Shown in pieces: positions 4,066-53,853 of a stretch of DNA of 53,853 bases. The notes under the pieces were generated by a model. It had not been told where the DNA came from, ran no database searches, and saw only the letters and a list, made by a program, of their open reading frames with translations. Made by a program: the position numbers and the translations under genes. How positions within the stretch are numbered: position 1 is the stretch's first letter; each line of letters opens with the position of its first letter. This stretch comes from Lachnospiraceae bacterium (GTDB lineage Bacteria > Bacillota > Clostridia > Lachnospirales > Lachnospiraceae): contig JAFUXG010000002.1 of the NCBI GenBank assembly GCA_017470935.1, positions 1-53,853 on the forward strand, in the 5' to 3' direction.

Positions 4066-4086
4066 TCCAAAACCTCCACATTCTAT

Positions 4087-4115: not shown

Positions 4116-4174
4116 TTGCAGCACAGCTGCTAAGTAACCATCTTCGAAAACGCCTGGCATATATCATATACATT

Positions 4175-4450
4175 TTAATAATAATTAGCATTAAAATATA
4201 CGTTATTGTATTCCTCTTCCTCTGCTTTCTGTGCGGCATTAGGATCTCTATAAGGTTCCGGCAGCGGCATCCATGCAATAACACCACGATCCTTACTCTC
4301 TCTTCCACGATAATCTGTCACAAATCCGTGAAGACGGAAGCTGTATGTACGAATATAGGTTGTCATACCGTCACTGCAGATAAATTCATTACGCTCACGG
4401 ATCTCATCAACAGTAGGCTCTCTGTCAGACACTAAAATCCAATCACTCAT
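4175..4450 (-). CDS. DUF551 domain protein
   Basis: A 91-residue cytosolic protein of unknown function. It begins MSDWILVSDREPTVDE and has the closing signature VIAWMPLPEPY, both characteristic of the DUF551 family often found in phages and accessory regions. The frame opens 39 bases earlier (4489), but AAAGGAG lies ten bases before ATG 4450, which decides the start. The C-terminus is acidic with an unusual Asn/Tyr-rich tail. It is separated from both neighbours by more than 100 bases and is probably monocistronic. No function can be assigned from context. Confidence 0.75.
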   Translation of the reverse strand: MSDWILVSDREPTVDEIRERNEFICSDGMTTYIRTYSFRLHGFVTDYRGRESKDRGVIAWMPLPEPYRDPNAAQKAEEEEYNNVYFNANYY

Positions 4451-4647
4451 ATTATGCTTTCTCCTTTCCAGATAAATTGTTCTGAGCAATTACACAGCTT
4501 CTGCGAATTCTTCTTGCGCTGTGCAAGCACCTGTTAAAAATCTACAAATAGAATAACACGAATCATCCAAGTATTCAAGATAAATCTGCACTTCCAATAC
4601 ATCCACGCTGCACCTCATAAAACAACCAGCCAGCCAATTCCCCCCTG

Positions 4648-38498: not shown

Positions 38499-39223
38499 GA
38501 TTCAATAATATATCCCACACCCCAGACGGTTTTAATAATCTCAGGATTATTGGGATCCTTTTCTATTTTTTCTCTAAGATGTCTTGCATGTACAGAAAGA
38601 GTTCCCTCTCCAATGAACTCATCTTCCCAAACACTTTTTAACAGTTCATCCTTTGTGATCACTCTTCCCTTATTTTCAAGAAGATATAAAAGCATCTTAT
38701 ATTCCTTGACCTTAAGACTGATGCTTTCCCCACTTTTCATAAGCTTATGGGAATATGTATCGATATAAATCTCAGGCGAAATCGTAAGCCTTTCCTGTTC
38801 TTTCAAAGCATTTTCAGGCGAAGTGGCGGAAGCTTTAACATTTGCCTTCTCCACAGACCTTTCATAACGGGAAAGCACAGCTTTAACCTTAGCAAATATA
38901 ATGTTCAATGAATAGGGCTTGCTTATGAAATCATCACCGCCGATGTTAAGAGCGGTAAGAATATTATCATCACTTTTTCTGGCACTGATGAACAGGATTG
39001 GCATATCATAATCCTTACGGATACGCTTGCAAAGTTCAAACCCGGATCCGTCACCGAGATTGATATCTAACAGTATCAATGACACCTCATTCTCATCAAG
39101 AAAAGTAACAGCATCTTCATAGCTTGTAACAAAGTAAGTACTGACATCAAATATGTTAAAGTATTCAGCCGTATTCTCTGCAATTGTAATATCATCATCT
39201 ACAATAAGACATTGGTAATTCAT
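38495..39223 (-). CDS. OmpR-type response regulator
   Basis: A 242-residue regulator: receiver (LIVDDDITIAENTAEYF, phospho-Asp in LILLDINLGDGSGFELC, Lys in DDFISKPYS) and a C-terminal winged helix (LSVHARHLREKIEKDPNNP). Kinase gene follows with a four-base overlap. Predicted targets are the ABC transporter and hydrolase genes upstream, through the tandem 11-mers at 44907-44928. Confidence 0.96.
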   Translation of the reverse strand: MNYQCLIVDDDITIAENTAEYFNIFDVSTYFVTSYEDAVTFLDENEVSLILLDINLGDGSGFELCKRIRKDYDMPILFISARKSDDNILTALNIGGDDFISKPYSLNIIFAKVKAVLSRYERSVEKANVKASATSPENALKEQERLTISPEIYIDTYSHKLMKSGESISLKVKEYKMLLYLLENKGRVITKDELLKSVWEDEFIGEGTLSVHARHLREKIEKDPNNPEIIKTVWGVGYIIES

Positions 39224-39317
39224 TGTTCAGCTCCCTGATCAAAGTATATCAATATTATCTTTTTCCCAACAGAAAAAGTCAATATCTAGTTGGAACACAT
39301 TTTTCCATCATTCCACT

Positions 39318-41480
39318 CTATCTTCTTACTCCAACACTTAGCCCTGTCTCACCCACAAACACTATCATGCCATATTCAGGTAAGGGGACGCCGGCATTAT
39401 ATTCTTTCATTAAGCTTGAATATTTTATATTGCCGTACTGATCATATACACAAACTGATGCGCCATCGGGAATATCAAACTTCACGGTCTCATTTTCCAG
39501 TCCTTCAATCCTATACCATTTTGCAGCACCTGTTTCTGTAGAAACCTCAGTAATGCCTTCGGTAAACTCCGGAATGTCTTTTTCGGAAATGTATTCTATA
39601 TTCTGGTCTGTCATGGAAAGAATCTCACATCCGTCCTCATTTCTTATCTCCATATCTGTTACATCCCTTGAAGCACTGTCCGGAATGGTGATCCTGTTCT
39701 CGGCATGATTCTCATCAATAATTGTACATCCGTTCACATAACCCTTTGCCTCTTCACTGGTGTTCAAGGTTACACAGTTGCCAGAAAGGATGTACCACCC
39801 ATCACTTGCGTTTCCATTGTAATAATAGTAGGAAACCCCGTTTCTATTCTCCCATGCGGTAATCACCTTATCACTAACATTATTTTCAGGAATCTTATAT
39901 AGTGCATACCCTCCATTAGGTTCTCTGACATAAACTGAACCATCCTTTTGCTCAAAGTCTAAGATTTCAACCGGCTTGGCAGAAATGGCATTACCTGACT
40001 CCACATCTCCTGACATCTTCACAAACCCGCCATCTGTAGTATACATATACTGCAGCGCAAATTCTTCATTATTTGTAAGAGAACGCATCAGCATATATTT
40101 CATATCCGGAAAGCTTATGTCTACTACCATGTTTGCATTAGCATACTGACCCTCATAGTTCTTATATTCGTCAGGAACTCTGTCAGCTAAGGCAGATGCT
40201 TCCTTTTCAGGATGTTCCACAGTAATTCCCTTTTCAAGAAGGGCAATATCAAGAAGCTTTAGTGCCACATCCTCATTCTCCCCACTGGAACCACCTGATG
40301 ACACCACCGCTACACTAATCTCTTCATCAGGTGCCACAGTAAGGCTTGAGTGCTGGAAATTCGTATCTCCACCTTTTTGCAGTATAGACACTCCTTTATC
40401 CTCGTACTCCTTCCTGCTTACCGTATCCCATCCAAGTCCAAAGCTGTCCGCAGAAGTGCCATAATCCTTAGTCATCTCGGACTTTGCCTTCTCTGAAAGC
40501 AAAGAATTGTTTCCCTGAAAGAAGGATGAACCAAATGCACAGACATCCTCCGCACTTGACATTATTCCTCCTGCACCAATAAGATGCACGATCTCAGGTT
40601 CCATCTGAATGTTATCGTTGATATATATGGGAACCTGCTCATCAAAGTCAGAAACACTCCACATAGTACCGGTATTGCTTATGGAAATAGGCTTACAGAT
40701 ATTTTTTTCAAGATAATCGGAAAATGTCATTCCACTTACCCGCTCTACTAAAATCTCAAGCAAGGTAAATCCATCATTACAATAGCAGTTGTACTCTCCC
40801 GGATTGTATTTAAGTCTCTCTTTACTCAAAAGCTTCAAAAATTCATCGTGATATTTTGAACTCTTTTCATTAAAGGTAAATCCCCCTCCGTACATGGAGC
40901 CCATAAGACCTGATGTATGGTTCATAAGCATCCTTACGGTAATATCCTTATATCTTTCATCAGCCATTCTGAAATCAGGAATGTATTCAGTTACAGGATT
41001 GTCAAGTTCAACCTTTCCCTGATCAACTAGCTGCATTGCTGCGGTTACAACATACATCTTGCTGACGGAACCGATATTTAAGTAATGCTTGTTATCACTT
41101 CCTTGGTTATCTCTTTCCAAGTCACTATTTTGATAATTATCGGCAATGTCACAAAATACTGTTGATATCCCCTCATCCGCCCTTCGGGCACCTGTCTTCG
41201 CTCCGCTTCGTCTCCATTCCATTCCGGTCGGTTCAGAGCCAATGTCCACCGGACATTGTGAACCGGCGCAGAACCGAAGTCCACAGGACGACCTGCACCC
41301 CCAGTGGGAAGGCTTTATATTATTACTGTTAGCACTCACCCTGAAAGGCACTGTCACCAAACCTGCTGCCATTATAAATGCTGCCGCTGTAATATACATT
41401 TTCTTCTTGGTTACCAACTTCACACTCTTCATCATTTTTTGGTTATTTAATCCATTCTTTCTTATATCAACTTTAATCAT
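39318..41480 (-). CDS. Serine beta-lactamase-like (class C/DD-peptidase fold) exported hydrolase
   Basis: A ~720-residue exported serine hydrolase. Signal segment MYITAAAFIMAAGLVTVPF, then after an odd 49-residue insertion the beta-lactamase (PF00144-type) domain: SxxK in IGSVSKMYVVTAAM, TSGLMG, YxN in YNCYCNDGFTLLE and KGG in QKGGDTNFQ. The last ~270 residues form a beta-rich C-terminal region of unknown type. ATG 41480 with GAGGTGA nearby is preferred over the 41537 frame start. Probably a DD-peptidase/esterase acting on the envelope or on an antimicrobial; it is part of the ABC-two-component cluster. Confidence 0.85.
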   Translation of the reverse strand: MIKVDIRKNGLNNQKMMKSVKLVTKKKMYITAAAFIMAAGLVTVPFRVSANSNNIKPSHWGCRSSCGLRFCAGSQCPVDIGSEPTGMEWRRSGAKTGARRADEGISTVFCDIADNYQNSDLERDNQGSDNKHYLNIGSVSKMYVVTAAMQLVDQGKVELDNPVTEYIPDFRMADERYKDITVRMLMNHTSGLMGSMYGGGFTFNEKSSKYHDEFLKLLSKERLKYNPGEYNCYCNDGFTLLEILVERVSGMTFSDYLEKNICKPISISNTGTMWSVSDFDEQVPIYINDNIQMEPEIVHLIGAGGIMSSAEDVCAFGSSFFQGNNSLLSEKAKSEMTKDYGTSADSFGLGWDTVSRKEYEDKGVSILQKGGDTNFQHSSLTVAPDEEISVAVVSSGGSSGENEDVALKLLDIALLEKGITVEHPEKEASALADRVPDEYKNYEGQYANANMVVDISFPDMKYMLMRSLTNNEEFALQYMYTTDGGFVKMSGDVESGNAISAKPVEILDFEQKDGSVYVREPNGGYALYKIPENNVSDKVITAWENRNGVSYYYYNGNASDGWYILSGNCVTLNTSEEAKGYVNGCTIIDENHAENRITIPDSASRDVTDMEIRNEDGCEILSMTDQNIEYISEKDIPEFTEGITEVSTETGAAKWYRIEGLENETVKFDIPDGASVCVYDQYGNIKYSSLMKEYNAGVPLPEYGMIVFVGETGLSVGVRR
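41165..41312. repeat. GC-rich structured sequence inserted in frame in the hydrolase gene
   Basis: About 148 bases with clearly higher GC than the gene. It contains a hairpin CGGTTCA-gagc-CAATGTCC-ACC-GGACATTG-TGAACCG (41229-41265) and further short stems (GTCC-ACA-GGAC). The translation (GCRSSCGLRFCAGSQCPVDI then GSEPTGMEWRRSGAKTGARR) is Cys/Arg-rich, unlike the rest, and lies between signal peptide and mature domain. The form is that of an interspersed repeat captured in frame. Confidence 0.7.
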
Positions 41481-41563
41481 CTTACTCACCTCATACCGGA
41501 CTATCATCCACATATCTGTAATCATTTCAACAAACATAATATTTTCTTCGTTTTCACCAATAC

Positions 41564-44065
41564 CTACTCCGTCATCAGCTCATAGACTGATATCTTTTCA
41601 ATCTTTCCTGCTGCTTTATATGCACAGCCAAATGTAAACAGAAGAATAGCTATATCGGTGACCACAACGCTTATAACAGAAACCGTGATCTTGGCTATAA
41701 GCATTTCTAAAGAACCTAACAACAGTATACTCAATATGGTTCCTATAAGTACGGCAATTATTGTGGGTGGTATTATCCTGGCCGCCACCTGGAACTTCAA
41801 TTCCTTTGATGTATAACCAATGCCCTTCATAATTCCAAGCTCCTTATACTGTTTTCTGATTGTTGATGCCATAAGTATTGACAGTATGATCATCACAACT
41901 ACCCCCGATACTATCATAAGAATGACCGATACCGCTGAGAAGGATGCAGCCGCACTAGCCACCATATCCTTGTAGTCCTCTTTTACATAAGTCATTGACT
42001 TTATCTTCATGGTGCCGGTGCTTCCGGTTATGACCTCATCTCCCACCCGGATAGCGTATTCCATATAGCTGACTCCCGATTCCACCATAGCCTTTGCCAT
42101 CTTGATCTCGGCTGCACTTTTAATTCTTTCTTCGAGAGTATCTCCGGTCACCTCACTGTCACAAATGTCTGATATCTTCTCTCCGTATCTTGAAGTGAGA
42201 AGGTCTGCGAAAGCCTCCCTGTCTGCTCCCTCATTTAAGTAAATGCTAAAAAGATTTGGATTGTATATGGGATAAAGCTTCTTAAATCCATCCTCCGTCA
42301 TATATGCTGCATTGGAATCTATTACAGAATTAACAAATCCACATACCACATAGTCTCTTTTCACCTTGCCGTACTCCACACTTACAGTATCGCCGGTTTT
42401 TACTTTAATTCTTCCTTTCACTTGGGATGTGACAGCCAGTTCATTATCATGCACGGGAAGCCGTCCCTCGATAAGAATGATTGTTTCCGTATCAGAATAA
42501 TCCTTATATACATCAAGAGAAGCTCTTTCTTCACTCTCAGGAAATGTGATACTCACAGAATCTGTTGTAGTCAAAACCTTATTGACCTCAGGAAGTTCCG
42601 CAAGCTCATCCGCAAAGGTCTCCCTGTCTATTCCTCCCACTGTCTCAATTCTTACATCCGGCAGTTCATGTCCGCAGACACTTCTAAGAACCCTGTCGGC
42701 ATTGGCAAACAAGCTTCCGATCATAAAGCTTGTTAAAACCATGACCGTTGCCGCAGTAATACATACTGTAAGTCCCACATTCTGTCCGGCACTTTGGACA
42801 AATCCTTTAAGGGCAAGCCTTATATGTATATTACCCTTTGTTTTTTCAAGAGGGAAATATGTTCTCTTAAAGTGATGTGTGGCAATTCCCTTACGAAATG
42901 CCAGTACAGGCGGATACTTCCTTACTGACAAAGCCTTGGTCAATGCTGTCAGGGCAATGAATATGAGAATGGCAAGCATTGACAATATGATAGGAATTAC
43001 AGGTATCGCATGCTCCCCGCCGTAATGGACTGCGGATGCCGCTTTATCAAGCAGGAATCCCGTAAGCGCTACAGCCGGAATAATACTTACGATAACTCCA
43101 AAAAGCGCGATAATAACATACTCTGCAATGTAGGAAAGTGCTATCTCTCCGGATTTGTAACCTATGGCCTCAAGCACTCCGATAGATACTAGTTGTTCAT
43201 TAATATCACTAACGATTCTGAATCTTATCATAACGATAACTGCTATAACAATAACGCCTGCCATGATAGCCACAATGACACTTAGCAGTGACATGTTGGT
43301 ATTATTGGTAGAAACCATATCCTCGTATGAGTAAGATATCAGTGAAGCGGAGATATCATTTACAGAAATATCCTTTGCAAATGCCTCAAATTCCTTAAGC
43401 AAAGCCCTGTTATCGGTACCCTCTTTCGTATCTGCTGCTATCATTTCGTATCTCTCAAGAAATTCTTCCATGTATGCGAAATCTTCCTGTGAAATGACCG
43501 CCTTTGTACCCATGGTCCAGAGCCCCGACTGGTAAAATCCTGCAACGGTAAATGTGAACTCCCTCTTACCGTATAATACTGTAAGTGTATCACCCACTGA
43601 TACATCAAGTTCTTTTTCATTACATTTATCAAGATAAATGGGATGTGGAAGGCCAGCTATCTCATCCTCTGACAAAGAAGTAGTAACATCAAACCTTTCA
43701 AGCAGTTCCTCATCACCTTCCGAAACAAAGCTGATATCATAAAACTTGTCCTCACCGGCATCGGAACCATCCTTTATCTTCAACATTTCCGTAACCATAC
43801 TCACATGGTCGTATCTCTCCACGCTCTCATTTTCTTCAAAAAATGCAAGGAACTTATCTGTGTAGTCTTCCTGGTTGATCTGAACGAAATTCTTATAGCA
43901 CTCACTACTGCTTACTATATCCGGTGTGATCCTTCCGATACCGGCTATCGAAGCTGCTGCCGAAGCTATTAAAGCCCCGCAGAATGCCGCAAGTATTCCA
44001 AGAAGGATGGACTCTTTTCTGTGCTTTCTTATATTGGCGATGGATAATCTTATTACTTTCTGCAT
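41564..44065 (-). CDS. FtsX-family ABC transporter permease (two FtsX domains)
   Basis: An 833-residue MacB/LolC-class permease. Membrane helix near residues 18-40, a large extracytoplasmic region, FtsX-like helices (about 265-395: VIVAIMAGVIVIAVIVMIRF, IALSYIAEYVIIALFGVIVS), a second extracytoplasmic region and a second FtsX set at the C-terminus (about 700-820). Ten membrane helices in total. It follows the ATPase gene by only three bases. With it forms a mechanotransmission-type ABC exporter; substrates are probably lantibiotic-like peptides or lipid-linked compounds. Confidence 0.93.
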   Translation of the reverse strand: MQKVIRLSIANIRKHRKESILLGILAAFCGALIASAAASIAGIGRITPDIVSSSECYKNFVQINQEDYTDKFLAFFEENESVERYDHVSMVTEMLKIKDGSDAGEDKFYDISFVSEGDEELLERFDVTTSLSEDEIAGLPHPIYLDKCNEKELDVSVGDTLTVLYGKREFTFTVAGFYQSGLWTMGTKAVISQEDFAYMEEFLERYEMIAADTKEGTDNRALLKEFEAFAKDISVNDISASLISYSYEDMVSTNNTNMSLLSVIVAIMAGVIVIAVIVMIRFRIVSDINEQLVSIGVLEAIGYKSGEIALSYIAEYVIIALFGVIVSIIPAVALTGFLLDKAASAVHYGGEHAIPVIPIILSMLAILIFIALTALTKALSVRKYPPVLAFRKGIATHHFKRTYFPLEKTKGNIHIRLALKGFVQSAGQNVGLTVCITAATVMVLTSFMIGSLFANADRVLRSVCGHELPDVRIETVGGIDRETFADELAELPEVNKVLTTTDSVSITFPESEERASLDVYKDYSDTETIILIEGRLPVHDNELAVTSQVKGRIKVKTGDTVSVEYGKVKRDYVVCGFVNSVIDSNAAYMTEDGFKKLYPIYNPNLFSIYLNEGADREAFADLLTSRYGEKISDICDSEVTGDTLEERIKSAAEIKMAKAMVESGVSYMEYAIRVGDEVITGSTGTMKIKSMTYVKEDYKDMVASAAASFSAVSVILMIVSGVVVMIILSILMASTIRKQYKELGIMKGIGYTSKELKFQVAARIIPPTIIAVLIGTILSILLLGSLEMLIAKITVSVISVVVTDIAILLFTFGCAYKAAGKIEKISVYELMTE

Positions 44066-44068
44066 TCT

Positions 44069-44827
44069 CTACCACCCCATCTCATCCAAGAAGCTCTGCA
44101 GTGACTCTCTTCTTTTTTTCAGATCATCCGATCCGTATTTCTCCATCCGGTGTTCACCCTCCACCTTACCGTCCTTGAAATACAAGACTCTGCTGCCCCT
44201 TAGCGCGGTTTTAATGTCATGGGTTACCATTACAATACTCTGGCCGTTCTCATGAAGCTCCGTGAATACATCAAGCACATCCTGACCTGATGAAGAATTA
44301 AGTGCTCCCGTAGGTTCGTCGGCAAAGAGTATCTGGGGATCATTTACCACTGCTCTTACAATACCCACTCTCTGGCATTCACCACCTGATAACTGGTTGG
44401 GATATTTCTTCCAAAGCTCCTCACCAATACCAACCTTGTTAAGAAGCTCTTTAACCTTCTCCACAAGCTCCGGTGAGTTCTTTCTCGCAACAAGAGCACC
44501 TGTCAAAATGTTATCCAACACATTCATATTCTCAAGAAGATATATGCTCTGGAACACGAATCCACAGTGCTTTCTGCGAAACATGGCAAGCTGGTCGTTG
44601 CTGTATTCCGAGATATCCTCGTCATTAAAAAAAACCTTTCCCATAGACGGCTTGTCCATTCCGGACAGAGCATACAGAAGGGTGGATTTTCCCGAACCGG
44701 AAGAACCCATGATTATAGTGAAATCACCCTCCATAATGTCTAAGTCAAGGTTTTTGATTACATGCTGCTGCAATCCTTCATTTGAAAATGTTTTACAAAG
44801 CTTATCAGTTCTTAGTATGGCTTTCAT
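44069..44827 (-). CDS. ABC transporter ATP-binding protein (MacB/LolD type)
   Basis: A 252-residue ATPase. Walker A GSSGSGKSTLLYALSG, Q-loop FVFQSIYLLENMNVLDN, signature LSGGECQRVGIVRAVV, Walker B ILFADEPTGALNSSSG and switch MVTHDI. ATG 44827 has CGGAG eight bases upstream; GTG 44836 is the alternative. First gene of the ABC-hydrolase-two-component cluster, with an activator-type promoter upstream. Confidence 0.95.
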   Translation of the reverse strand: MKAILRTDKLCKTFSNEGLQQHVIKNLDLDIMEGDFTIIMGSSGSGKSTLLYALSGMDKPSMGKVFFNDEDISEYSNDQLAMFRRKHCGFVFQSIYLLENMNVLDNILTGALVARKNSPELVEKVKELLNKVGIGEELWKKYPNQLSGGECQRVGIVRAVVNDPQILFADEPTGALNSSSGQDVLDVFTELHENGQSIVMVTHDIKTALRGSRVLYFKDGKVEGEHRMEKYGSDDLKKRRESLQSFLDEMGW

Positions 44828-44862
44828 ATCGATCACTCCGTTTTTCTTTAAAGTTTTATATT

Positions 44863-44928
44863 ACTATACATGAAAAACAGAATAATATCTTTATGAAAAT
44901 GCTATTAAATTCTTATCAAATTCTTATC
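44863..44928 (-). promoter_or_regulatory. ABC operon promoter with tandem 11-mers (response regulator box)
   Basis: Two exact, adjacent copies of AAATTCTTATC (44907-44917, 44918-44928) lie directly upstream of a weak -35 (AAGATA on the minus strand, 44886-44891) and a good -10 (TATAGT, 44863-44868). An 11-bp period matches one DNA turn and OmpR/BceR-type dimers. Confidence 0.6.
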
Positions 44929-44975
44929 TGATTAATTACCCTAATGTTTGGCGACAGCCTTCAAATCAAAATAAT

Positions 44976-45039
44976 TTGAAACATTTCAACTTTTTCTCAC
45001 TTTTTTCTTGAAACATTTCAGCTTTTTCCTGACTTTTCA
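44976..45039. repeat. Tandem 32-bp repeat with palindrome TTGAAA-CA-TTTCAA
   Basis: Two units (44976-45007, 45008-45039), each beginning TTGAAACATTTCA and followed by a CTTTTTC-rich stretch. The first palindrome is perfect. They lie between the divergent ABC operon and the plus-strand AAA operon and may be regulator binding sites. Confidence 0.65.
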
Positions 45040-45104
45040 ACAGCTATCTCTTTGATGATGTTAATTTTTATCTAAAAAAACAATCTAATGAGTTCATCAT
45101 ATTA

Positions 45105-45133
45105 TTGTTATATTGCTTTATTTATGGTATACT
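45105..45133 (+). promoter_or_regulatory. Promoter of the AAA-TOPRIM operon
   Basis: TTGTTA, 17 bases, TATACT, followed by AAGGAG (45149-45154) eight bases before the ATG. A short leader of about 25 bases. Confidence 0.75.
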
Positions 45134-45162
45134 TTACGCATCTTTTTTAAGGAGCGCATATT

Positions 45163-46281
45163 ATGATTAAATATTTATTTGCTAATAATTACAAATCTTT
45201 GGTTAATTATAAAATTGAATTCAATAGTCTAAATGTCCTTATTGGAAAAAACGGAAGTGGCAAAACAACTGTTATTAATTTATTAACACTTTTGCGTGAT
45301 TTCATTGGTGGAAAAGAATCAAATAATTGTTTTCCAAACATTACATTGACCAGATGGATGAATAATAATATACAAACATTTGAAATGCGTTGCCTAATCA
45401 ATGACAATCATTATTATTATCATTTAGAAATAGAACACAACCATGACAATAGCAATCCATGTATAGTTTTAAATGAAACCGTCAAACTTGATGAGCATTT
45501 ATTATTGAGTTGTAAAAATGGACGCGTAGATATATACAACGATGATTTTGAACACTTGACTGAAATTGCTTCAGATATGACTCGTTCAGGACTTAATTTT
45601 ATTTTTCAGGGTAAAGACAACACTTTGCTTTTTCAATTTAAAACAAACATTTTACAAAATATTATAATATGTTCACCTGATCCTAAGAATATGAATATTC
45701 TTTCAACAAATACTATCGATCAAGCATACCCGGATTATTGTTTAAGCAACATAGTTTCGGTTTATGCTTATCTATCACAATCAAGTACGGAAACAATAAT
45801 CAGACTTTGGGATAAAATGAAAGAAATTAACCCTAATTTTGTTAAAACCAAAGCAGATATGGCACCATTTGGTAAAACCTTATCTTTTGAATATTGCTAC
45901 AATAATCAAAATATACCACTTTATTTTTCCGAATTATCCGACGGAGAAAGAATGATGTTTGCACTCTATCTCTTATTATACGGATTTATTAAAAAAGGAC
46001 TAACTGTTTTAATTGACGAACCGGATAACTATCTGGGTCTTCGCGAAATCAAGTCATGGTGCAATGAACTTGAATCAACCTGCATTGAACAGGGGCAATG
46101 TATTATGATATCACACCATCCTGAAGTAATTGATTATTTTGGAAACGATTCTTCAATATGGATGTCACGTTTACAATCAGGCGAAAGTGTTATAACAGAC
46201 AATCCGTTCGCAAACTTTAAAAATGAAACAGGATTAAAATATTCTGAAATAATTGCCGGAGGATACTTAGATGAAATTTAG
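45163..46281 (+). CDS. AAA ATPase (OLD/RecF-like), putative defence protein
   Basis: A 372-residue ABC-type ATPase of the SMC/OLD class. Walker A LIGKNGSGKTTVINLL (residues ~26-41), signature FSELSDGERMMFALYLLL (~260), Walker B LTVLIDEPDNYLG and switch MISHHPEVIDYFG. There is no long coiled coil and no fused TOPRIM domain. The downstream gene, which overlaps by 11 bases, supplies a TOPRIM-like protein, so the pair looks like a split OLD nuclease (compare Gabija and PARIS). It is on the opposite strand to its neighbours and more AT-rich, signs of acquisition. Confidence 0.82.
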   Translation: MIKYLFANNYKSLVNYKIEFNSLNVLIGKNGSGKTTVINLLTLLRDFIGGKESNNCFPNITLTRWMNNNIQTFEMRCLINDNHYYYHLEIEHNHDNSNPCIVLNETVKLDEHLLLSCKNGRVDIYNDDFEHLTEIASDMTRSGLNFIFQGKDNTLLFQFKTNILQNIIICSPDPKNMNILSTNTIDQAYPDYCLSNIVSVYAYLSQSSTETIIRLWDKMKEINPNFVKTKADMAPFGKTLSFEYCYNNQNIPLYFSELSDGERMMFALYLLLYGFIKKGLTVLIDEPDNYLGLREIKSWCNELESTCIEQGQCIMISHHPEVIDYFGNDSSIWMSRLQSGESVITDNPFANFKNETGLKYSEIIAGGYLDEI

Positions 46282-46843
46282 CGACCGCTATCAATATACT
46301 GTTTTATGTGAAGATAAAAAAACATTTCATTTTATCAACAATATACTAAAACACCAAAACATTAATGTACACAGGATTGATCCGATAATATCTCCCCGCG
46401 CCGCCGGAAGTGGAGAGGCTTTTGTTAGAAACACATATATCAAGCAATTAAAGGCATTACGATCAACAAATTATATCAAACGAGCATTGATTGTTTGCAC
46501 AGATGCAGATACTCATACTGTTGACGAGCGTAAAAAATGGTTTTCTACCGTATGCTCATCTTCTACTGAAAATATTCAAGAACGCAAAGAAAATGAACCT
46601 GTAATGATCTGGATTCCAAAACGTTCAATAGAAAACTGGATAGAGTATTTTAAGAACGACTCCAATGACGTTACCGAAGATACCAAATATGAACATAATG
46701 GTAACCCTGTTAAATGTACATATGAAGCCTCTAAAATGTCTGAATATTTGCAGAATACAGGTAATAACAAAAATGCTATACTCCCTTCAATCCAAGATGC
46801 AAAAAATGAATATATACAATTATGTAACAGTCAGAAAGAATAA
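46271..46843 (+). CDS. TOPRIM-like nuclease partner of the AAA ATPase
   Basis: A 190-residue protein with TOPRIM-like motifs: Glu in YTVLCEDKKTFHFINNIL (residues ~10-25), the Asp pair in ALIVCTDADTHTVDERKKW (~75-92) and a following VMIWIPKRSIENWIEYF. Between them GSGEAFVRNTY is conserved-looking. The ribosome site GGAGGA lies within the 3-prime end of the ATPase gene. TOPRIM domains in OLD-type proteins nick or cut nucleic acid under control of the ATPase. DUF4435/DUF4276-like families are the nearest I can suggest; exact family uncertain. Confidence 0.72.
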   Translation: MKFSDRYQYTVLCEDKKTFHFINNILKHQNINVHRIDPIISPRAAGSGEAFVRNTYIKQLKALRSTNYIKRALIVCTDADTHTVDERKKWFSTVCSSSTENIQERKENEPVMIWIPKRSIENWIEYFKNDSNDVTEDTKYEHNGNPVKCTYEASKMSEYLQNTGNNKNAILPSIQDAKNEYIQLCNSQKE

Positions 46844-46851
46844 GGAAATAC

Positions 46852-46995
46852 TTATCGTATTTCAGACTCTATAATCAAATTATAATCTTTCTCTACGTTA
46901 TCACTGTACATTTTTGCAAAATAGTCAAATAAATCTCTGCCAATATCATTTAATACTAAATTCGCATTATACGTTTTACATACTTTATCCTCTTT
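46852..46995 (-). pseudogene. Coding fragment downstream of the DUF4304 gene
   Basis: In the same frame as, and directly after, the DUF4304 stop, about 47 protein-like codons run to TAA (TYNANLVLNDIGRDLFDYFA, KMYSDNVEKDYNLIIESEIR). No start codon with a ribosome site is usable. Likely the C-terminal remnant of a second immunity-type gene. Confidence 0.4.
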
Positions 46996-47781
46996 TTAGT
47001 TGGTTTCATAAAGATATTTTTTCAAATTGTCCAAATTTTTTGTTTCTGTTTCATTCATCATATCAATAACATCGGAACAATCTTTTTTGAGTATTTTATC
47101 CTTCAAAATATTCAGTTTTTGCAATTTGTTCTGTCCATCAGTTATACATTCAGCTTTCATTTGAATCCATTTTTCCTTATATTGGGGGCTTGGTGTTTCT
47201 TCTATCATTTTTTCCAGATAAGCTGAATGATTTTCCATCAAAGCTTTAGTCTGATTTATGTAATTATTTAAACAAACCAAAGCATTGTCGTATTCTTCCA
47301 GTTTAATGCACAACATTATTAGCGGATTATAGCGTTTGGATAAATACAATTCCAACGCAAAATCATCTTTTCCTTTATCAGTGTCAGGAATATAGTTTAT
47401 ATGTTTTTCAATAATCTGATATACTCTGGAATATGTGCTGCAGTCATCCAAAATAGGCAATAGAAAATCAGTTATAATATGAGCAACCTCTTTTGCACTA
47501 TCATCTGTATAATACCACCATATATCACCTTTCCCAAATATCATGCCTAATCTCATGCTTTCAAAAGAACACTTACCATTTACGATTTCTTTATCAAACA
47601 AGCAGTCTATTCCTATGTTGACAGTAAACTGCTCTCCACCGGAACTGCCCTGAAATTCTACATATTGGAATAGCTGCTTATTAACAACCCTGACATACCT
47701 CTGTCCTTCTATCTTAAACCCAGATTTTTTCATGGTCTCTTTCAAATATTCTTTTATCTTTTTAAGTATAATCTTGTTCAT
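46996..47781 (-). CDS. DUF4304 protein, probable immunity protein
   Basis: A 261-residue protein. The N-terminal half matches DUF4304 (MNKIILKKIKEYLKETMKKS, GFKIEGQRYVRV, QYVEFQGSSGGEQFTVNIGI), a family that occurs mainly as immunity genes next to polymorphic toxins. The C-terminal half is helical and specific to this protein. GGAG lies 11 bases before ATG 47781. Upstream is a toxin-like C-terminal remnant (47807-47926). Confidence 0.75.
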   Translation of the reverse strand: MNKIILKKIKEYLKETMKKSGFKIEGQRYVRVVNKQLFQYVEFQGSSGGEQFTVNIGIDCLFDKEIVNGKCSFESMRLGMIFGKGDIWWYYTDDSAKEVAHIITDFLLPILDDCSTYSRVYQIIEKHINYIPDTDKGKDDFALELYLSKRYNPLIMLCIKLEEYDNALVCLNNYINQTKALMENHSAYLEKMIEETPSPQYKEKWIQMKAECITDGQNKLQKLNILKDKILKKDCSDVIDMMNETETKNLDNLKKYLYETN

Positions 47782-47806
47782 ATAAATAGTTTCTCCAAAA
47801 CAGAAA

Positions 47807-47926
47807 TTATTGTTTTGTATCCTCACCTATTTTGATATATTCACGTTCGGCACCATAGACTTCTCCAATGATTATATCATTGCGTCCTATTAAAATAAAT
47901 ATTGAAAATAATAAATCTATTCCCCA
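47807..47926 (-). pseudogene. Possible toxin C-terminal remnant
   Basis: A 39-codon frame between stops reading LIGRNDIIIGEVYGAEREYI then KIGEDTKQ, ending 25 bases before the DUF4304 start. The position just before an immunity gene fits the severed tail of a polymorphic toxin, but the family is not recognised. Confidence 0.25.
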
Positions 47927-47989
47927 TCAGGAAGCTTATCCACTATACAGTTTTTTTACAAATTCCTTTAGACTGATATTCCATACAAA

Positions 47990-49087
47990 TCATACAAACA
48001 GGCAAAACACCTCTTTGCCCCATTCACTCTTAACCCATTCAATGTTATCATATATCCAGCCATAATCTCCATTACCGTAGCCGCAATCCTGATGTAGGTC
48101 ATGAAGTCCTGTGGAATTATATGCAATCTCCAACACCTGCGAATCATCATCATGATAATCATGCGGGGCAAGCAGATTCAGATAATGTGTGTACATATCA
48201 TTATGGCTTGCCATGGCACGCACACTTTTTCCATCCTTTGTGATGAAATCATCACCCTGTTTTTTACATTCCACAAGCTTTACTCCAAGCTTTTCATAGA
48301 AAAAATCATTCATGTGCCTCTTTAACTGGCCCCATTTAGAAAGCTGTGTACTGTTTTCCCATTCATTTTTAGCGCAAAAATATATGTGATTATATAGATT
48401 TCTTCCGTTTTCCTTGTTATTTAATGCCTGCTCAATCTGCATGCATTTTTCATCGGGTATATTGCCTGACACTGTAATTTTGTACTCGTAAGGCTCGATT
48501 GAGAAAACAACATTTTCCTCACCTGAAATGTCAATCCCCGCTTCTCGCAGTATATTATCTATCTGACGGTTTATCATCTGACGGTTGAATTCATTTTCTT
48601 CCGCATCATTGACCTTGCCCGTAAAACAAAAATCATCATTATACCACTTTACCTCCAACATCTGGCTAAGACGTGCTGCATCTTCATAACCATTCATAAA
48701 CTCAATTGTATTGCCTGTGCGATTAAGCCTCTCTCTGTTTCGTTGGCGCATTTCTTCACAGGTGCTTCTGACCTCATCTATACTTGCATACCCGCTCATT
48801 CGCTCGACAACTCCGTTTTCATGCAGTCTGTATGTATGTCTGCCATTTCCCACGTCAACAACGAATTCACCATCCGTTACCCCAAGTCTTCTCAGAACAG
48901 TGGCAACCTCCTTCCGATCTTCGCAATATGGCATTTTCCCTTTTCCCAATGATGTTATTATCCGGCCAACATTATAGATATCTGCCGCAAAATCTGAATT
49001 TCTGTTTGAATATACTCCCGAAGCATTCTTAACCTCACGAAAGCTCTCACTCCTTGCCCACTCCACTCTGCCATTATGAACTGTCAT
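47990..49087 (-). CDS. Uncharacterised protein, paralogue of the next gene
   Basis: A 365-residue frame from its first ATG. Coding sense continues ~60 codons further upstream (DTDSFTYRDASGNSIAVPEC and on) to a TAG just past the upstream gene's end, without any ATG, GTG or TTG; only an ATA sits where a start is expected. So either the N-terminus begins at ATA, or a start was lost. Residues ~180-250 (NILREAGIDISGEENVVFSI, QIEQALNNKENGRNLYNHIY) align with the gene at 49264-50313; I suspect the DUF4885 class but cannot confirm. After its stop the frame continues for another 17 codons, hinting at a premature stop. Confidence 0.55.
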   Translation of the reverse strand: MTVHNGRVEWARSESFREVKNASGVYSNRNSDFAADIYNVGRIITSLGKGKMPYCEDRKEVATVLRRLGVTDGEFVVDVGNGRHTYRLHENGVVERMSGYASIDEVRSTCEEMRQRNRERLNRTGNTIEFMNGYEDAARLSQMLEVKWYNDDFCFTGKVNDAEENEFNRQMINRQIDNILREAGIDISGEENVVFSIEPYEYKITVSGNIPDEKCMQIEQALNNKENGRNLYNHIYFCAKNEWENSTQLSKWGQLKRHMNDFFYEKLGVKLVECKKQGDDFITKDGKSVRAMASHNDMYTHYLNLLAPHDYHDDDSQVLEIAYNSTGLHDLHQDCGYGNGDYGWIYDNIEWVKSEWGKEVFCLFV

Positions 49088-49263
49088 TACATAATCATTC
49101 CCATCATTGGCACGAAGCGCATGAAATGATTTATTCGAAAAAATAAGCTCATTATTATCAGCCTTAAGCCTGTCATAATTAGCAGGATTCAGCTTAGGTA
49201 TAGCACATTCCGGTACTGCGATACTATTACCGGAAGCATCACGGTAAGTAAAACTATCTGTAT

Positions 49264-50313
49264 CTATGCACTATAATCAAAGCTTTCAGCCCCTTCAAGC
49301 CGAACCGAACCGCTTTGATAATTCATGCTCAATGCCAAATCAGGTATCTTTGAAATATCATATCTCATCGCATCCCTTTCCAGAATCAGGAAATAATCAT
49401 ATGCAACATTCTTGAATTCTGACCGAATTGAAAAATCCTTCAATCCCTGTTTATATAACTCCCTTGCATTCTGTCCCTCGGAATTAACAAAGCCATCCTC
49501 TGTCTGTGTAAAATCTCTGATGTCAAGACCTGTTTTTTCGTAAAAGTCACTGTATAACAAATACTTCGCCCTCTCATCCTCTTTCAACAGTTTCTGAGCG
49601 CTTGCATTGTGAAGCATATTGTAAAAGAGATTTCCTGCATTTTTTCCTGTGTTCAGTGCCTGCTCCATCTGCTTTATAAGCGAATCAGACACAGGATTAT
49701 CCTCGTCATTTTCCAAAAGGTATACTGACAGCCTCTTCGTCATACCATTCACTGCAAAGGAAAATCTCGCATTTCCAAATAGCGAAATGTCTAAGCCGTT
49801 ATTGATAAATACATTTCGAAATTGCTGCGACAGAGTTTTCTCATTGTATTCTTTTGTGGTAGAGTTAGATGCCGCTTTGACCTCTCCTTTCAGATGAGGA
49901 TCATCCTTTACGTATCCACTGCTCAAGGTTGTACCAATTATACCAAAGCAGGTCATATTAAGTTCACAGGCATACATTGCTTTACGTTCGGCATCTGAAT
50001 ACTGCGGATAATTATTCTTGCGGTATTTTTGCTCAAGCGCACATTGTAACTCATGATAATCACTATATCTTGCACGGTTCGACTCTGCAAGTGGAGCATA
50101 TATCTCTTCCAGTTTTCTATACATATCTGCTCCGTCAGAGTCCTTACTTGGAATATTATTATTGTTACTGATCTCAGTTGCTGATAGATCCCTTTTATAC
50201 CAAACTTCATTCGGAGTATCCACCTTTTTGCGGTTTGAAAGATTGTAGTAATTATAATAACCACTCCCCCGGCTCTCGATAACAGGGTTACTCCATGTAA
50301 AACTATATGGCAT
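49264..50313 (-). CDS. Uncharacterised protein, paralogue of the previous gene
   Basis: A 349-residue protein without signal peptide or membrane helix. Shared segments with 47990-49087: FRNVFINNGLDISLFGNARF, QMEQALNTGKNAGNLFYNML and YSDFYEKTGLDIRDF. The N-terminus is Tyr/Asn-rich. GGGAGG lies seven bases before ATG 50313; the first ATG of the frame overlaps that site. Family possibly DUF4885-like, seen in Lachnospiraceae clusters. Part of a run of four minus-strand genes (47990-52369). Confidence 0.65.
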   Translation of the reverse strand: MPYSFTWSNPVIESRGSGYYNYYNLSNRKKVDTPNEVWYKRDLSATEISNNNNIPSKDSDGADMYRKLEEIYAPLAESNRARYSDYHELQCALEQKYRKNNYPQYSDAERKAMYACELNMTCFGIIGTTLSSGYVKDDPHLKGEVKAASNSTTKEYNEKTLSQQFRNVFINNGLDISLFGNARFSFAVNGMTKRLSVYLLENDEDNPVSDSLIKQMEQALNTGKNAGNLFYNMLHNASAQKLLKEDERAKYLLYSDFYEKTGLDIRDFTQTEDGFVNSEGQNARELYKQGLKDFSIRSEFKNVAYDYFLILERDAMRYDISKIPDLALSMNYQSGSVRLEGAESFDYSA

Positions 50314-50411
50314 AACAATCCCTCCCATTCTTTAATCATATTGAATATATCGTCAAAAGCATTTGGCTCATTAATATAAATGTTGTGAATAGGAACGCAT
50401 TATTTTAATGC

Positions 50412-51470
50412 CTATATTATATCCCTCCTGCAAAACAGTGAAAACACATTAAAATGCTTCAACAACCTTAACATCACCGGATTATCATTGGCATATCGTT
50501 CAAACAGCGATCCGACATTGAAATTATATGCCAAGTCTCCAAGAACAGTAGAATTATTAAACGGTACATCTAATTTCCACTTGCGTTCTCCCAATTCGAG
50601 CAGTATGACACCCTTTTGCGTTTCCAATGTATTTTCACCTTCCCGTCCGGGAGCTGCCACTGCTTTATAGAAAAATGAGAATCGTTCTCCGCTTGAAACT
50701 GTTTCAATGAAATCAGGGTTCTTTATATCCTTTAAGGAGCACATATTTCTGCCTCTTGCATAATAATTCCAGCATTCCTCAAAATCCATTCCACTTAATA
50801 AACTGCTTTCTCTGGCATCATTTTCTACATTAACATAATCAATTGATGGTGCTTGCCATTCCTTTGCTAGTTCTTCTGCTATTTCTTTAAGGAATGTATG
50901 CGTACTTTCGCATCTATCCCTGTAATCCGTATCATAATATACATACCCAATATCATTATCTCCATATTGCGAAGAAATACTTTTACCTGCATCCATACAT
51001 ACCTGTGACATCCAATTTGCATTATGAAATTGATATAACGAATAAATTCTGGAAATAAGTTTTTGATCATCTTTCGGATTATTTTCTGTAATTTGCCCCT
51101 TTTGTATCTTGTATAATCTCCATTCTTTACATGTGCTTATAAAGTCTTTTTTTAATTCTTCATCTGAAAATCCTTCATAACTATACTTCTTCATACATTC
51201 GCTAATATGTCTGTGGAGATCCGTTCCGCTTCTAAATATACTATTATTTACAAAATTTAAACGAATATTGCTATAATTATCCGAAGGGATTGCCGTCTGC
51301 GATTCCGGTGTAATCTCCATGTGGTCAAACTGATTTGCAATTTCTGTTATCTCCTTGTCTGCCTGCCCTGTCTTTTCTTGAGTTTCACTTCCTGCCTGCT
51401 TCGTGCTTATCTGATTTCCTGATAATATATTGATTGAATTTGCTGAAACTGCATTTATACCCATGCTCAT
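50412..51470 (-). CDS. Uncharacterised protein
   Basis: A 352-residue protein without signal peptide. The start region (MSMGINAVSANSINILSGNQ) is Ser/Asn/Ile-rich as in proteins of secreted-substrate type from flagellar or related systems, but that is only a resemblance. The middle is helical, the end beta-rich (KGVILLELGERKWKLDVPFN). AGGAGGGG lies three bases before the first ATG; the second ATG (codon 3) has better spacing. Same cluster as its neighbours. Confidence 0.6.
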   Translation of the reverse strand: MSMGINAVSANSINILSGNQISTKQAGSETQEKTGQADKEITEIANQFDHMEITPESQTAIPSDNYSNIRLNFVNNSIFRSGTDLHRHISECMKKYSYEGFSDEELKKDFISTCKEWRLYKIQKGQITENNPKDDQKLISRIYSLYQFHNANWMSQVCMDAGKSISSQYGDNDIGYVYYDTDYRDRCESTHTFLKEIAEELAKEWQAPSIDYVNVENDARESSLLSGMDFEECWNYYARGRNMCSLKDIKNPDFIETVSSGERFSFFYKAVAAPGREGENTLETQKGVILLELGERKWKLDVPFNNSTVLGDLAYNFNVGSLFERYANDNPVMLRLLKHFNVFSLFCRRDII

Positions 51471-51514
51471 TATCCCCTCCTGATTCGTTGTTTTCCTGTC
51501 TGTAAATGCTGCCT

Positions 51515-52369
51515 CTATCGGTGCTTCTCTTTCAACTCACTTTGTGGTGGATATTTCCTATCATAAATATCAATTCCATACGGAATATCCAAGGTTCCTT
51601 TCTCGGATACAGTATATTTTTCTCCTGCGATTTCAAATACTGCTCCGGGCTTATAACGGTTAAATAGCCCTACATCACCCAACTGTCCTGTGATAGATTT
51701 ATAATCATCATCATATTGTCTTTTGGGTATCATAACCGCCCAGTTTTCATTGCTTGTGTTATATAGATACTCCTGCTGTTTATCGCCCACTTTAACTGTA
51801 AAAAAACCTTTTTTCACCCCTGCCTGTTCCAGATAATACTTTTGTTGTTCACGAGTATAATCCAAACCGATATAAATTCCATTTTTAGATAATATCTTCC
51901 AAAAATGTCCCAAATTCCAGCTCTCCTCATCATGAACACCCCTTATAACCTCTGAATACGGATTACTTAACTGTCCTCCCGTACATGCCATTTTATGAGG
52001 CTTTCCGTTGATATCATTGAACTGATAATAGTTCCCTTCCCGTATATCAATTACATTATTCTCTGCACGGATAGGAATACAGTCATCAAGGGAAACGGCA
52101 GGAATCTGGTTATCCATATATTCTGTTCCGTCAATTATTATAGAATTTCTTGTAACTGTCATATTGTTATTTTTGATAGTCAGAAAACCAAAGTTAAAAT
52201 AATCCAATGATTTTTTAGTCATTGATTCTTTTGATCTGATATATCCATTGGTCGAAAATTCTACCGTATCATATGTCGCTGTTTTCCTGTCCCTCGGTAT
52301 ATGTCCCTGCTTTACGGCTTTCATTTCGTTACTGATTGATAACACCGTTCTTAACCCTTCAATATTCAT
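51515..52369 (-). CDS. Uncharacterised protein
   Basis: A 284-residue soluble protein, first gene of the four-gene cluster. The opening MNIEGLRTVLSISNEMKAVK is helical and the rest beta-rich (FGFLTIKNNNMTVTRNSIII, DGTEYMDNQIPAVSLDDCIP; GAVFEIAGEKYTVSEKGTLD). Family not recognised. Start ATG with AGGTGGGG upstream. Confidence 0.6.
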   Translation of the reverse strand: MNIEGLRTVLSISNEMKAVKQGHIPRDRKTATYDTVEFSTNGYIRSKESMTKKSLDYFNFGFLTIKNNNMTVTRNSIIIDGTEYMDNQIPAVSLDDCIPIRAENNVIDIREGNYYQFNDINGKPHKMACTGGQLSNPYSEVIRGVHDEESWNLGHFWKILSKNGIYIGLDYTREQQKYYLEQAGVKKGFFTVKVGDKQQEYLYNTSNENWAVMIPKRQYDDDYKSITGQLGDVGLFNRYKPGAVFEIAGEKYTVSEKGTLDIPYGIDIYDRKYPPQSELKEKHR

Positions 52370-52472
52370 TACGCATTCCCCACCTCTTCATAATTATTTA
52401 CTTGAGAATTTAACAACTCTATCTAATATATCGTTAGCCGACGGTCTGCCCTTAACCAAGATGTAGCGAATA

Positions 52473-52520
52473 GGAAAAAAGAAAACACTCCCTCATGCAT
52501 AACAGCATAAAGAAGTGTTT
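52473..52520 (-). terminator. Terminator of the AAA/PD-(D/E)XK gene
   Basis: On the minus strand an imperfect ~16-bp stem (AAACACTTC.../...GGAGTGTTT) with a small loop, followed by TCTTTTTTCC. Lies about 130 bases after the stop at 52650. Confidence 0.7.
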
Positions 52521-52562
52521 CGATGTTCATTTTATTATATTTTCTGAATTATAAACTCTCCT

Positions 52563-52592
52563 ATAAGCACCTTTGGTGCTTATGTCTTTTTT
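52563..52592 (+). terminator. Hairpin with T-run on the plus strand
   Basis: Perfect 9-bp stem ATAAGCACC / GGTGCTTAT with TTT loop, followed on the plus strand by six T. No plus-strand gene precedes it; it may act on antisense transcription or be part of the gene-end structure. Confidence 0.4.
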
Positions 52593-52649
52593 CGCATTAT
52601 TCCGGGGCCATACGACCATGACCATCGCAACGTTCATTTTTTCACGTCC

Positions 52650-53853
52650 TCACACTACCGCTTCAACCAGCACCTTGTCTCCGACAGAGATTGTCTTAAC
52701 TCCCACTTCCTTGTTCCTGTTGAAGTTGTAGCTTAACATATATCCTTTCTGAATATGGAAATAATCAAGATAATCCGAAAGCTGTTCCTCACCTCGCTCA
52801 TTGTAGGCATTACCGCGCCATATCTTGAGCTCGACAACGAACCGTTCTCCCAAATAATCAATCACTACATCCATCCTCCTGCTGTTTCTTGTCTGCGCCT
52901 CAACGTAATAATTGCCTGTTCCGTTGATGATCGGACGGATGTATAGAAGAAATCTTCTCCTGCCCTCGTCCTCATCAAAGGTGTCATAATCATCTCCATA
53001 CAGATCATCAAAACTCACAACAAATCTTTCAAGCACCTTATCCATATCTAAATGACCATCCTTAATGAACAAGTCTCTGTCATTGGAGCCTGCACGGTAA
53101 ATCGAAGAATTCTTCATCTCATTTTCTGACAGGTAATAATTATATAAAAGCATTTCAAATATTCTATTGGCTATTTTAATTGTATTTCCTTTAATAACGA
53201 TGAAACCATACATCAATGCATCATTAACAGCAAGATTATATCTGTTATAAGCAACATCTTTGCCCGTGAAAAGCAAATCTTCCAATGTATTGCTCATTTC
53301 AGGATTATTTATAACCTTCCCCATCAAAGAATCAAACAATGTGTTACTTTCGGATACAATTATCCTTACCGCCTCATTAATCCCCTCTAATGTCCATGTA
53401 TCAGAAAGACCAGAAAACCTATCCGTACCCGCTAATTCACCGTCAAGGATCTGACATATCCGGCATACAAGAAACGGATAACCGCCCGTATAATCCCGAA
53501 TCTCCTGTGCAATACTCTTTACGTCCATACCCGTATTATGATCTTCCTCATAATCTGATAGCATTCCCGCAATCCCTTCTACCGAAAGGCTCATATCAAT
53601 CAAGAAATCTACCGCGATGTTCCACGGACTATTCACCTTAGCCGCCTCATCAGGACGCAGCTTCCGTTTCAGGTTCTTCACATCCGTCACTCCCGCAAGA
53701 ATCACTGATTGAAAAGTCTTAAGTTTTGGGTTCTTCTTTCTCTTTAGATAAAGTGAACGAAGCTGCGCAAGGAAATCCAGAAATACCTGATTATTGGTTG
53801 CACTGTCAACCTCATCTATAAAAAGTACAATGGGCTTATCGCTCATTTTGCAC
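52650..53853 (-). CDS. AAA-type ATPase with C-terminal PD-(D/E)XK nuclease domain, N-terminus cut by window edge
   Basis: The frame continues past the right edge, so only ~400 C-terminal residues are seen. Walker B/sensor area: PIVLFIDEVDSATNNQVFLD, then LAGVTDVKNLK and the AAA-like lid. The C-terminal domain has the PD-(D/E)XK signature DVVIDYLGERFVVELKIWRG (D...ExK) and ends LSYNFNR...VLVEAVV, as in the AAA-ATPase-like/PDDEXK_9 proteins abundant in Lachnospiraceae and Bacteroidetes. Walker A must lie outside. Function unknown, often linked to genome defence or mobile DNA. Confidence 0.8.
   Translation of the reverse strand, partial: CKMSDKPIVLFIDEVDSATNNQVFLDFLAQLRSLYLKRKKNPKLKTFQSVILAGVTDVKNLKRKLRPDEAAKVNSPWNIAVDFLIDMSLSVEGIAGMLSDYEEDHNTGMDVKSIAQEIRDYTGGYPFLVCRICQILDGELAGTDRFSGLSDTWTLEGINEAVRIIVSESNTLFDSLMGKVINNPEMSNTLEDLLFTGKDVAYNRYNLAVNDALMYGFIVIKGNTIKIANRIFEMLLYNYYLSENEMKNSSIYRAGSNDRDLFIKDGHLDMDKVLERFVVSFDDLYGDDYDTFDEDEGRRRFLLYIRPIINGTGNYYVEAQTRNSRRMDVVIDYLGERFVVELKIWRGNAYNERGEEQLSDYLDYFHIQKGYMLSYNFNRNKEVGVKTISVGDKVLVEAVV

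Follow-up and report, generated by a model that had tools for sequence, protein, structure and literature searches.

A predicted OLD-type ATPase and TOPRIM-like gene pair in a Lachnospiraceae bacterium as a candidate abortive-infection module

In the PARIS system, three AriB molecules are bound to a hexameric AriA ATPase; phage proteins such as Ocr set AriB free, whereupon it dimerises and cleaves tRNA-Lys (PMC12409363). PARIS depends on both of its genes and on the residues predicted for the ATPase and TOPRIM sites (PMC9122126). In assays, TOPRIM_OLD toxins were neutralised by AAA proteins (PMC10440598), and the two-gene system WonAB works by abortive infection (PMC12137116). Both PMC12137116 and PMC12839542 cite an ABC-ATPase survey by Krishnan et al. 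2020. The literature passages compared named no Lachnospiraceae example of OLD-ABC/TOPRIM-type systems. Here we describe a gene pair in a stretch of 53,853 nucleotides from a Lachnospiraceae bacterium (assembly GCA_017470935.1, contig JAFUXG010000002.1, forward strand), the whole of which is called the window. The first gene encodes an OLD-type ABC ATPase (component A) and the second a small putative nuclease effector with TOPRIM-like motifs (component B). The pair was read, with a probability of roughly 60%, as a PARIS/AbiL-like abortive-infection module made of an OLD-ABC ATPase and a predicted TOPRIM nuclease, and a defence role is what we infer for it.

Component A was found to be an ABC ATPase with a Walker A, an LSxGE signature, a Walker B DEP and an H-loop, which are features of the broad kind of such modules. 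Search against Pfam showed matches to AAA_21 with an expectation value (E) of 2.9e-19 (70.7 bits, cut-off 27) and to AAA_15 with E 3.3e-10 (40.6 bits, cut-off 32.1), and the cut-offs of AAA_23 and ABC_tran were also exceeded. In the PADLOC library of defence profiles, the best 25 of the 116 families matched at E ≤ 1 included MAD3 (2.6e-20), AriA (2.6e-19), AbiLi (4.8e-19), HEC-01A (8.6e-19) and PDC-M25A (1.3e-17). These scores were bunched and therefore identify the superfamily, not the system. No relatives of the ATPase were found in phages or in viral contigs. One match was found in plasmids at 25% identity (Dolichospermum), where the next listed gene encodes 51 amino acids (aa) and no B-like open reading frame (ORF) was seen.

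The intact unit of A and B recurs in three other genomes, at the loci L011 (a roe-deer rumen Lachnospiraceae metagenome-assembled genome, MAG, which appears to be G184, in the family of the window), L012 (Lachnospiraceae MAG RUG12871) and L055 (G1231). Identity to the window homologue was 52, 40 and 27% for A and 51, 43 and 28% for B. The overlap between the two genes measures 11 bases in both the window and L012 and 14 bases in L011, and in L055 a gap of 3 bases separates them. The protein encoded directly behind the L055 ATPase has 193 aa and carries HEGEKD, MTDLDDD and CPKYRIENWIEYL. The gene overlap, the similar divergence and the conserved motifs suggest that A and B work together.

Overall, the distribution of the pair is sporadic. 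The scan of genome contigs with B produced two loci (L011 and L012) from 289 candidate stretches. The sets of relatives, genus, family, class and phylum genomes overlap; B matched only in the window's own genome among 60 relatives (one match), 26 genomes of the genus, 291 of the class and 398 of the phylum, and the family gave good matches in 2 of 299 genomes (the window's own and G184). Of 305 genomes of the order, the ATPase profile picked out two, G1231 and that of the window itself, and the negatives of this order search are soft because, among the matches listed, six candidates per genome were scored out of 30-120. Eight weak matches of B were dropped, four in the family (E 0.0048-0.0062), three in the class (5.7e-5 to 0.0055) and one in the phylum (5.1e-4). 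Five of them hold stop codons, and the remaining three fall within frames that span 412-1116 aa. Seven were judged from match tables and L007 alone was read; its ORF resembles what we take to be a glutamyl-tRNA reductase and the match was hence read as chance.

Direct searches with B produced no assignment. The best Pfam match was DUF3226 (E 3.5e-4, sub-threshold, residues 10-105), followed by three weaker matches, while PHROGs gave two matches with E 0.11 and 0.23. No match was found in PADLOC (E ≤ 1), in NCBIfam or, by single sequence, in the PDB. A three-member B profile matched one PDB entry, streptodornase (E 1.2), and this was read as chance. The preliminary description of the locus had remarked that B does not clearly match AriB or GajA, and the searches agreed, with neither DUF4435 nor any PADLOC family at E ≤ 1. 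Within the PKRSIENW motif of B, residues P116, K117, I120, E121 and W123 were invariant in all four homologues.

B is TOPRIM-like by the order of its motifs and by a two-step profile comparison, an assignment that is supported, not settled, and of whose basis a confident structure is no part. The AlphaFold2 model of B had a predicted local distance difference test score (pLDDT) of 61 and a predicted template modelling score (pTM) of 0.61, with block means of 71-86 for residues 1-60 and below 50 for residues 129-174. The modelled topology was b-a-b-a-b-a-a-b-a, with E14 directly behind strand 1 and D78/D80 following strand 3. A glutamate after strand 1 and a DxD after strand 3 is the TOPRIM order. 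For the profile comparison, the L055 protein used as query aligned with the three close B proteins over 159 columns (E 1.3e-5), and its E was paired with E14, TDLD with TDAD and PKYRIENW with PKRSIENW. The reverse alignment, from the three B proteins to L055, had E 3e-5 and covered the C-terminal 63 columns only, the DxD being unreached. MAFFT misplaced the DxD of L055, pairing TDAD with another stretch, and the profile-guided four-member alignment placed only the C-terminal part of L055.

The comparison set consisted of 14 DUF4276/DUF3226-type proteins, namely the second partner in L012, L031, L032, L034 and L038-L047. Against ten of these, the B family reached E 1.9e-4 with three members, a score equalled by none of 300 column shuffles, and E 1.3e-4 with four members in the profile-guided alignment (0 of 200 shuffles). 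The ten in turn scored E 1.6e-4 and all 14 E 0.0063 against an OLD/GajA-type TOPRIM profile built from the C-terminal part of three proteins, and none of 200 shuffles was as high in either case. Two of these three proteins were checked in the PDB; one matched OLD 6P74 and the other GajA and OLD 6P74. B is thus tied to TOPRIM in two steps and not directly, since it resembles the DUF4276/DUF3226-type proteins, these resemble the OLD/GajA TOPRIM and the direct score is weak. DUF3226 and DUF4276 are presumably TOPRIM-like in the Pfam clans, and this was not used as evidence. The earlier reading of a TOPRIM domain in the second protein was supported by motif order and two-step comparison, but not by the direct score against OLD TOPRIM or by a confident structure. 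The AlphaFold check that had been proposed for B gave this strand order and placement of E14 and D78/D80, at a pLDDT of 61 and with no significant fold match.

Genes of the DUF4276 family that follow a similar ATPase seem to make up a broad family of such modules. Searches for DUF4276 gave matches in 1 of 60 relatives and in 15 of 249 phylum genomes. The distinct loci number 16 (L031 and L037-L051), L044 and L052 being one and the same gene. A Walker-A ATPase lies directly upstream on the same strand in 14 of the 16, that is, in 13 of the 14 loci over the Pfam cut-off and in one of the two below it; none is shown upstream in L048 and L051. The DUF4276 match of L037 contains a stop codon. Within one genus, L032/L050 and L034 hold pairs of a 417-aa ATPase and a 182-aa protein, and the small protein of L032/L050 had sub-cut-off matches to DUF3226 and DUF4276, bridging both Pfam families. 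In the literature library searched, no paper was found for the word DUF4276; among the papers listed, none dealt with the HEC-01 system or named PDC-M25, and none of those listed for MAD3/MAD4 was relevant.

In the proposed mechanism, the ABC-type ATPase A would form a multimer that binds B and holds it inactive, as in PARIS. A would sense a phage-encoded trigger or an infection-linked change and would then release or activate B. As a stand-alone TOPRIM nuclease, B may hold Mg2+ through E14 and D78/D80, motifs that are present in the protein, and would cut a nucleic acid, tRNA or another RNA being the likeliest target, so that growth of the infected cell would be arrested before the phage multiplies. 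Abortive infection was preferred because PARIS, the neutralisation of TOPRIM_OLD toxins by AAA proteins and WonAB have the same plan. Further support came from the L012 homologue, which lies beside a PDC-M25-type pair, from the divergence of A and B in step, from the overlap of their genes in three of the four loci and from the sporadic distribution. More tentatively, the B proteins might be an unlisted lineage of stand-alone TOPRIM effectors (PKxxIExWI) that is missed by the defence-profile library used. Together with the ATPase they would then form a separate abortive-infection type in Lachnospiraceae and related bacteria, responding to a trigger of its own and attacking an RNA or DNA target of its own, unlike the tRNA-Lys cut of AriB. 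If active, the pair would extend the OLD-ABC/TOPRIM modules by a rare lineage of effectors from Lachnospiraceae. It would also show that some ATPase-TOPRIM pairs have an effector below the reach of the profile libraries applied here, so that surveys by such profiles undercount this kind.

Several results weigh against the abortive-infection module. Many defence genes are carried on phages, plasmids and viral elements, and relatives of B were absent by tblastn from 50,697 phage and 72,556 plasmid records and from viral contigs; plasmid and phage searches with the B proteins of the relatives were likewise empty. The Pfam scan covered 27 of the 52 other selected ORFs of the window and the PADLOC scan 11 other window proteins, and no known defence genes were found around the pair among the scanned window proteins, nor in L011 or L055. 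Foldseek and VIA-align gave no significant or TOPRIM match with the model of B, whose pLDDT of 61 is low in confidence so that fold matches say little. The set of ten proteins was one among seven groupings tried; against all 14, the three-member B family scored E 0.004 with 1 of 300 shuffles reaching the score, and the guided four-member family E 0.0017 with 0 of 200. Two further four-member figures (5.3e-5 and 1.6e-4) are not relied on, as the MAFFT alignment behind them misplaces L055. Finally, B compared directly with the OLD/GajA-type TOPRIM had E about 0.1, a score reached by 16 of 200 shuffles.

The other explanations overlap, and their probabilities and that of the best explanation do not sum to one. 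The strongest of them, a toxin-antitoxin system without phage sensing in which a TOPRIM toxin B would be neutralised by A for addiction or stress response, was considered rather unlikely. The overlapping genes with A first and the assayed neutralisation of TOPRIM_OLD toxins (PMC10440598) agree with such a system. However, single-gene deletions in PARIS were reported to be non-toxic, which excluded toxin-antitoxin there (PMC9122126), and a relative of B was encoded by no plasmid record searched.

Two more readings were judged improbable, and to a similar degree. As a restriction-like module of the Gabija/OLD type, A and B would nick or degrade foreign DNA and the cell would survive. OLD and GajA nucleases do cut DNA (PMC10568477), and the two profile steps lead from B to the OLD/GajA TOPRIM domain. 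Neither the GajB helicase nor another DNA-handling partner was recognised beside the pair at the four loci, however, and the two domains sit on separate proteins, as they do in PARIS and AbiL. Alternatively, B may not be TOPRIM at all and may be another small nuclease or a Rossmann-like protein whose E and DxD motifs arose by chance. Against this, the DxD and IExW of B (and E14 in some alignments) pair in order with those of the DUF4276/DUF3226-type proteins and the profile scores exceed nearly all shuffles, and fold matches obtained with the low-confidence model say little here. A housekeeping role of the ATPase with its TOPRIM partner in DNA repair or the cell cycle (RecF-like or like the archaeal OLD-family Cran1) is very unlikely, for although the cell cycle of an archaeon reportedly cannot progress without an OLD-family ATPase that apparently has no antiviral role (PMC12796447), and although no defence island was seen, the pair occurs in only 1 of 26 genus genomes, is rare elsewhere and low in GC, and has no common neighbourhood that was seen.

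The features of the locus are as in Table 1.

Table 1. Coordinates of the gene pair, its motifs and its candidate signals in the window
Feature	Position	Strand	Basis or conservation
Component A: OLD-type ABC ATPase, 372 aa	45163..46281	+	ORF; AAA_21/AAA_15 (Pfam); PADLOC models; homologues in three loci
Walker A GKNGSGKTT	45244..45270	+	G28, G31, G33, K34 invariant in 4/4 homologues
ABC signature LSDGERM	45934..45954	+	LSDGE invariant in 4/4
Walker B and catalytic Glu VLIDEPDN	46006..46029	+	D285, E286, P287, N289 invariant in 4/4
H-loop SHH	46111..46119	+	S317, H318 invariant in 4/4
Component B: TOPRIM-like protein, 190 aa, putative nuclease effector	46271..46843	+	ORF; sub-threshold DUF3226; profile comparison; homologues
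TOPRIM-like first acidic motif CED (E14)	46307..46315	+	E14 invariant in 4/4 (alignment)
TOPRIM-like DxD motif TDAD (D78, D80)	46499..46510	+	Invariant in 3/3 close homologues
PKRSIENW motif, counterpart of IESW in DUF4276/DUF3226-type proteins	46616..46639	+	Profile alignment
A/B gene overlap, 11 bases	46271..46281	+	ORF coordinates
Ribosome-binding site AAGGAG	45149..45154	+	Sequence; 8 bases before ATPase ATG
Promoter-like TTGTTA-17-TATACT, weak	45105..45133	+	Site scan; no excess over shuffles

Strand and guanine-plus-cytosine (GC) content were counted over a greedy selection of 54 largely non-overlapping window ORFs of at least 80 aa. Two of the 54 lie on the plus strand and these are exactly A and B, in agreement with the claim that the pair is the only plus-strand operon of the stretch; the 11-base overlap agreed with the ORF coordinates, and the quoted ATPase and TOPRIM motifs were present on two separate proteins and conserved in the homologues. 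A higher AT content had also been proposed, and this held for the ATPase gene, whose GC of 0.300 is the lowest of the 54. The B gene is also low (0.332), but five ORFs besides the ATPase are lower, including the neighbour at 46996-47826 (0.310). Averaged over the 49 ORFs that reach 120 aa or more, the pair counted in, GC was 0.392 (standard deviation, sd, 0.045). A consensus promoter of its own was not upheld for the pair. The promoter-like site with its TG had 9 of 12 consensus matches, and the scan found 14 such sites against 13.7 (sd 3.7) in shuffles, so the site is backed solely by its position. The scan for signals of the pair found no terminator-like site, and no Rfam families were found at 44000-48000. 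An inverted repeat flanking the pair (44881-44898/47004-47021, 17/18) was rejected as chance, as 6 of 60 shuffles equalled it. In addition, the divergent region before the pair holds two copies of TTGAAACATTTCARCTTTTTC (44976-44996 and 45008-45028), 32 bases apart and with a palindromic core. These repeats are possibly an operator; their palindromic core was absent near the same ABC transporter in L029/L030 and also absent in L011/L012.

On one side of the pair, Pfam showed an ABC transporter with a histidine kinase, a response regulator and a beta-lactamase-family protein, and on the other side DUF4304 and two DUF4885 genes. The flanking genes were ABC_tran (44069-44836), DUF4304 (46996-47826) and DUF4885 (47990-49087). 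PADLOC matches were found in 3 of the 11 other window proteins, an HD-domain protein to Cas10 (9.9e-5), a helix-turn-helix protein to RmrA and others (2.3e-13) and a MerR-type regulator to MAD1 (2.3e-11), and all three were read as generic. In L011 the pair lies among sugar-metabolism, transporter and replication genes, and in L055 it is flanked on one side by a protein of surface type, long and repetitive, and on the other by one of chemotaxis-receptor type, all named by reading the translations. L012 (5.8 kb) has a second pair at 3405-5328, downstream of the homologue of the pair and separated from it by a 244-aa ORF. It consists of an ATPase (393 aa) and a DUF4276-like protein (252 aa), with PADLOC matches to PDC-M25A (5.4e-53) and PDC-M25B (1.1e-7) and a DUF4276 match under the cut-off (9.3e-6). 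A conserved non-defence neighbourhood had been named as a finding that would speak against a defence system; on reading the four loci no shared neighbour gene was seen. When 17 window proteins were compared with L011 by tblastn, nothing besides the pair itself matched except, weakly, one response regulator.

For the empty site, the ABC ATPase, permease, beta-lactamase-fold protein and response regulator on one side of the pair were syntenic in L029 and L030 of the genus. No clean empty site was obtained because the window genes on the other side, from 46996 to 53846, were not found in the fetched L029/L030 stretches. These syntenic genes belong to a minus-strand run at 37044-44836 of histidine kinase, response regulator, beta-lactamase-family protein (739 aa), permease (833 aa) and ABC ATPase, which is syntenic in two genus genomes save for the kinase, which fell outside the fetched stretches. 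We take the run to resemble a peptide-resistance transporter module. Two adjoining DUF4885 genes (365 and 354 aa) lie at 47990-50328, and relatives of the first were found in 3 of 26 genus genomes, its own included. Finally, a 398-aa protein at 52650-53846 had sub-threshold matches to AAA_35 and PDDEXK_3, which is an ATPase-nuclease type.

Compared with the known systems, the pair shares with PARIS the adjacent genes, an OLD-type ABC ATPase of the AAA_21/AAA_15 type placed first, for which the AriA model gives its 2.6e-19 match, and a stand-alone TOPRIM-like protein placed second. It differs from PARIS in the length of A (372 aa, against 464 in the solved AriA chains among the matches listed) and in B, which has no match to DUF4435 (PF14491, AriB) at E ≤ 1. 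The detection rule given in the passages of PMC9122126 demands a DUF4435 partner, and by this feature the pair is not PARIS. AbiL (AbiLi and AbiLii) and RloA/RloB are also two-gene pairs of an ATPase and a TOPRIM-like protein, and the AbiLi model matches the ATPase at 4.8e-19 in the window and 1.2e-23 in L012. B, however, matches neither RloB nor AbiLii models at E ≤ 1 in Pfam or PADLOC, and for this reason the pair is not AbiL/RloAB. In OLD class 1 and GajA, an ABC ATPase is likewise coupled to a TOPRIM-type partner but within one fused protein, whereas two ORFs are found here and in the three homologous loci, and Gabija has the helicase GajB (PMC10568477) whereas a UvrD-like helicase is not among the flanking genes here. 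With its domains unfused and no adjoining helicase, the pair is neither OLD nor Gabija. WonAB and PD-T4-4 share the two-gene plan of an OLD-ABC ATPase and a nuclease effector; WonB is a predicted PD-(D/E)XK nuclease and B is TOPRIM-like. The PADLOC candidates HEC-01 and PDC-M25 (ATPase and DUF4276-type) have an ATPase of similar size, and B has DxD and IExW in the same order as their DUF4276-type partners, but this kinship of B is visible solely through profile comparison. The HEC-01B and PDC-M25B models had no match to B at E ≤ 1 in the window, L011, L012 or L055 (0 PADLOC families), and therefore the pair is not a listed member of either. Overall, the pair belongs to the broad kind of two-gene modules of an OLD-ABC ATPase and a TOPRIM-like protein, in which its TOPRIM part is supported, not settled.

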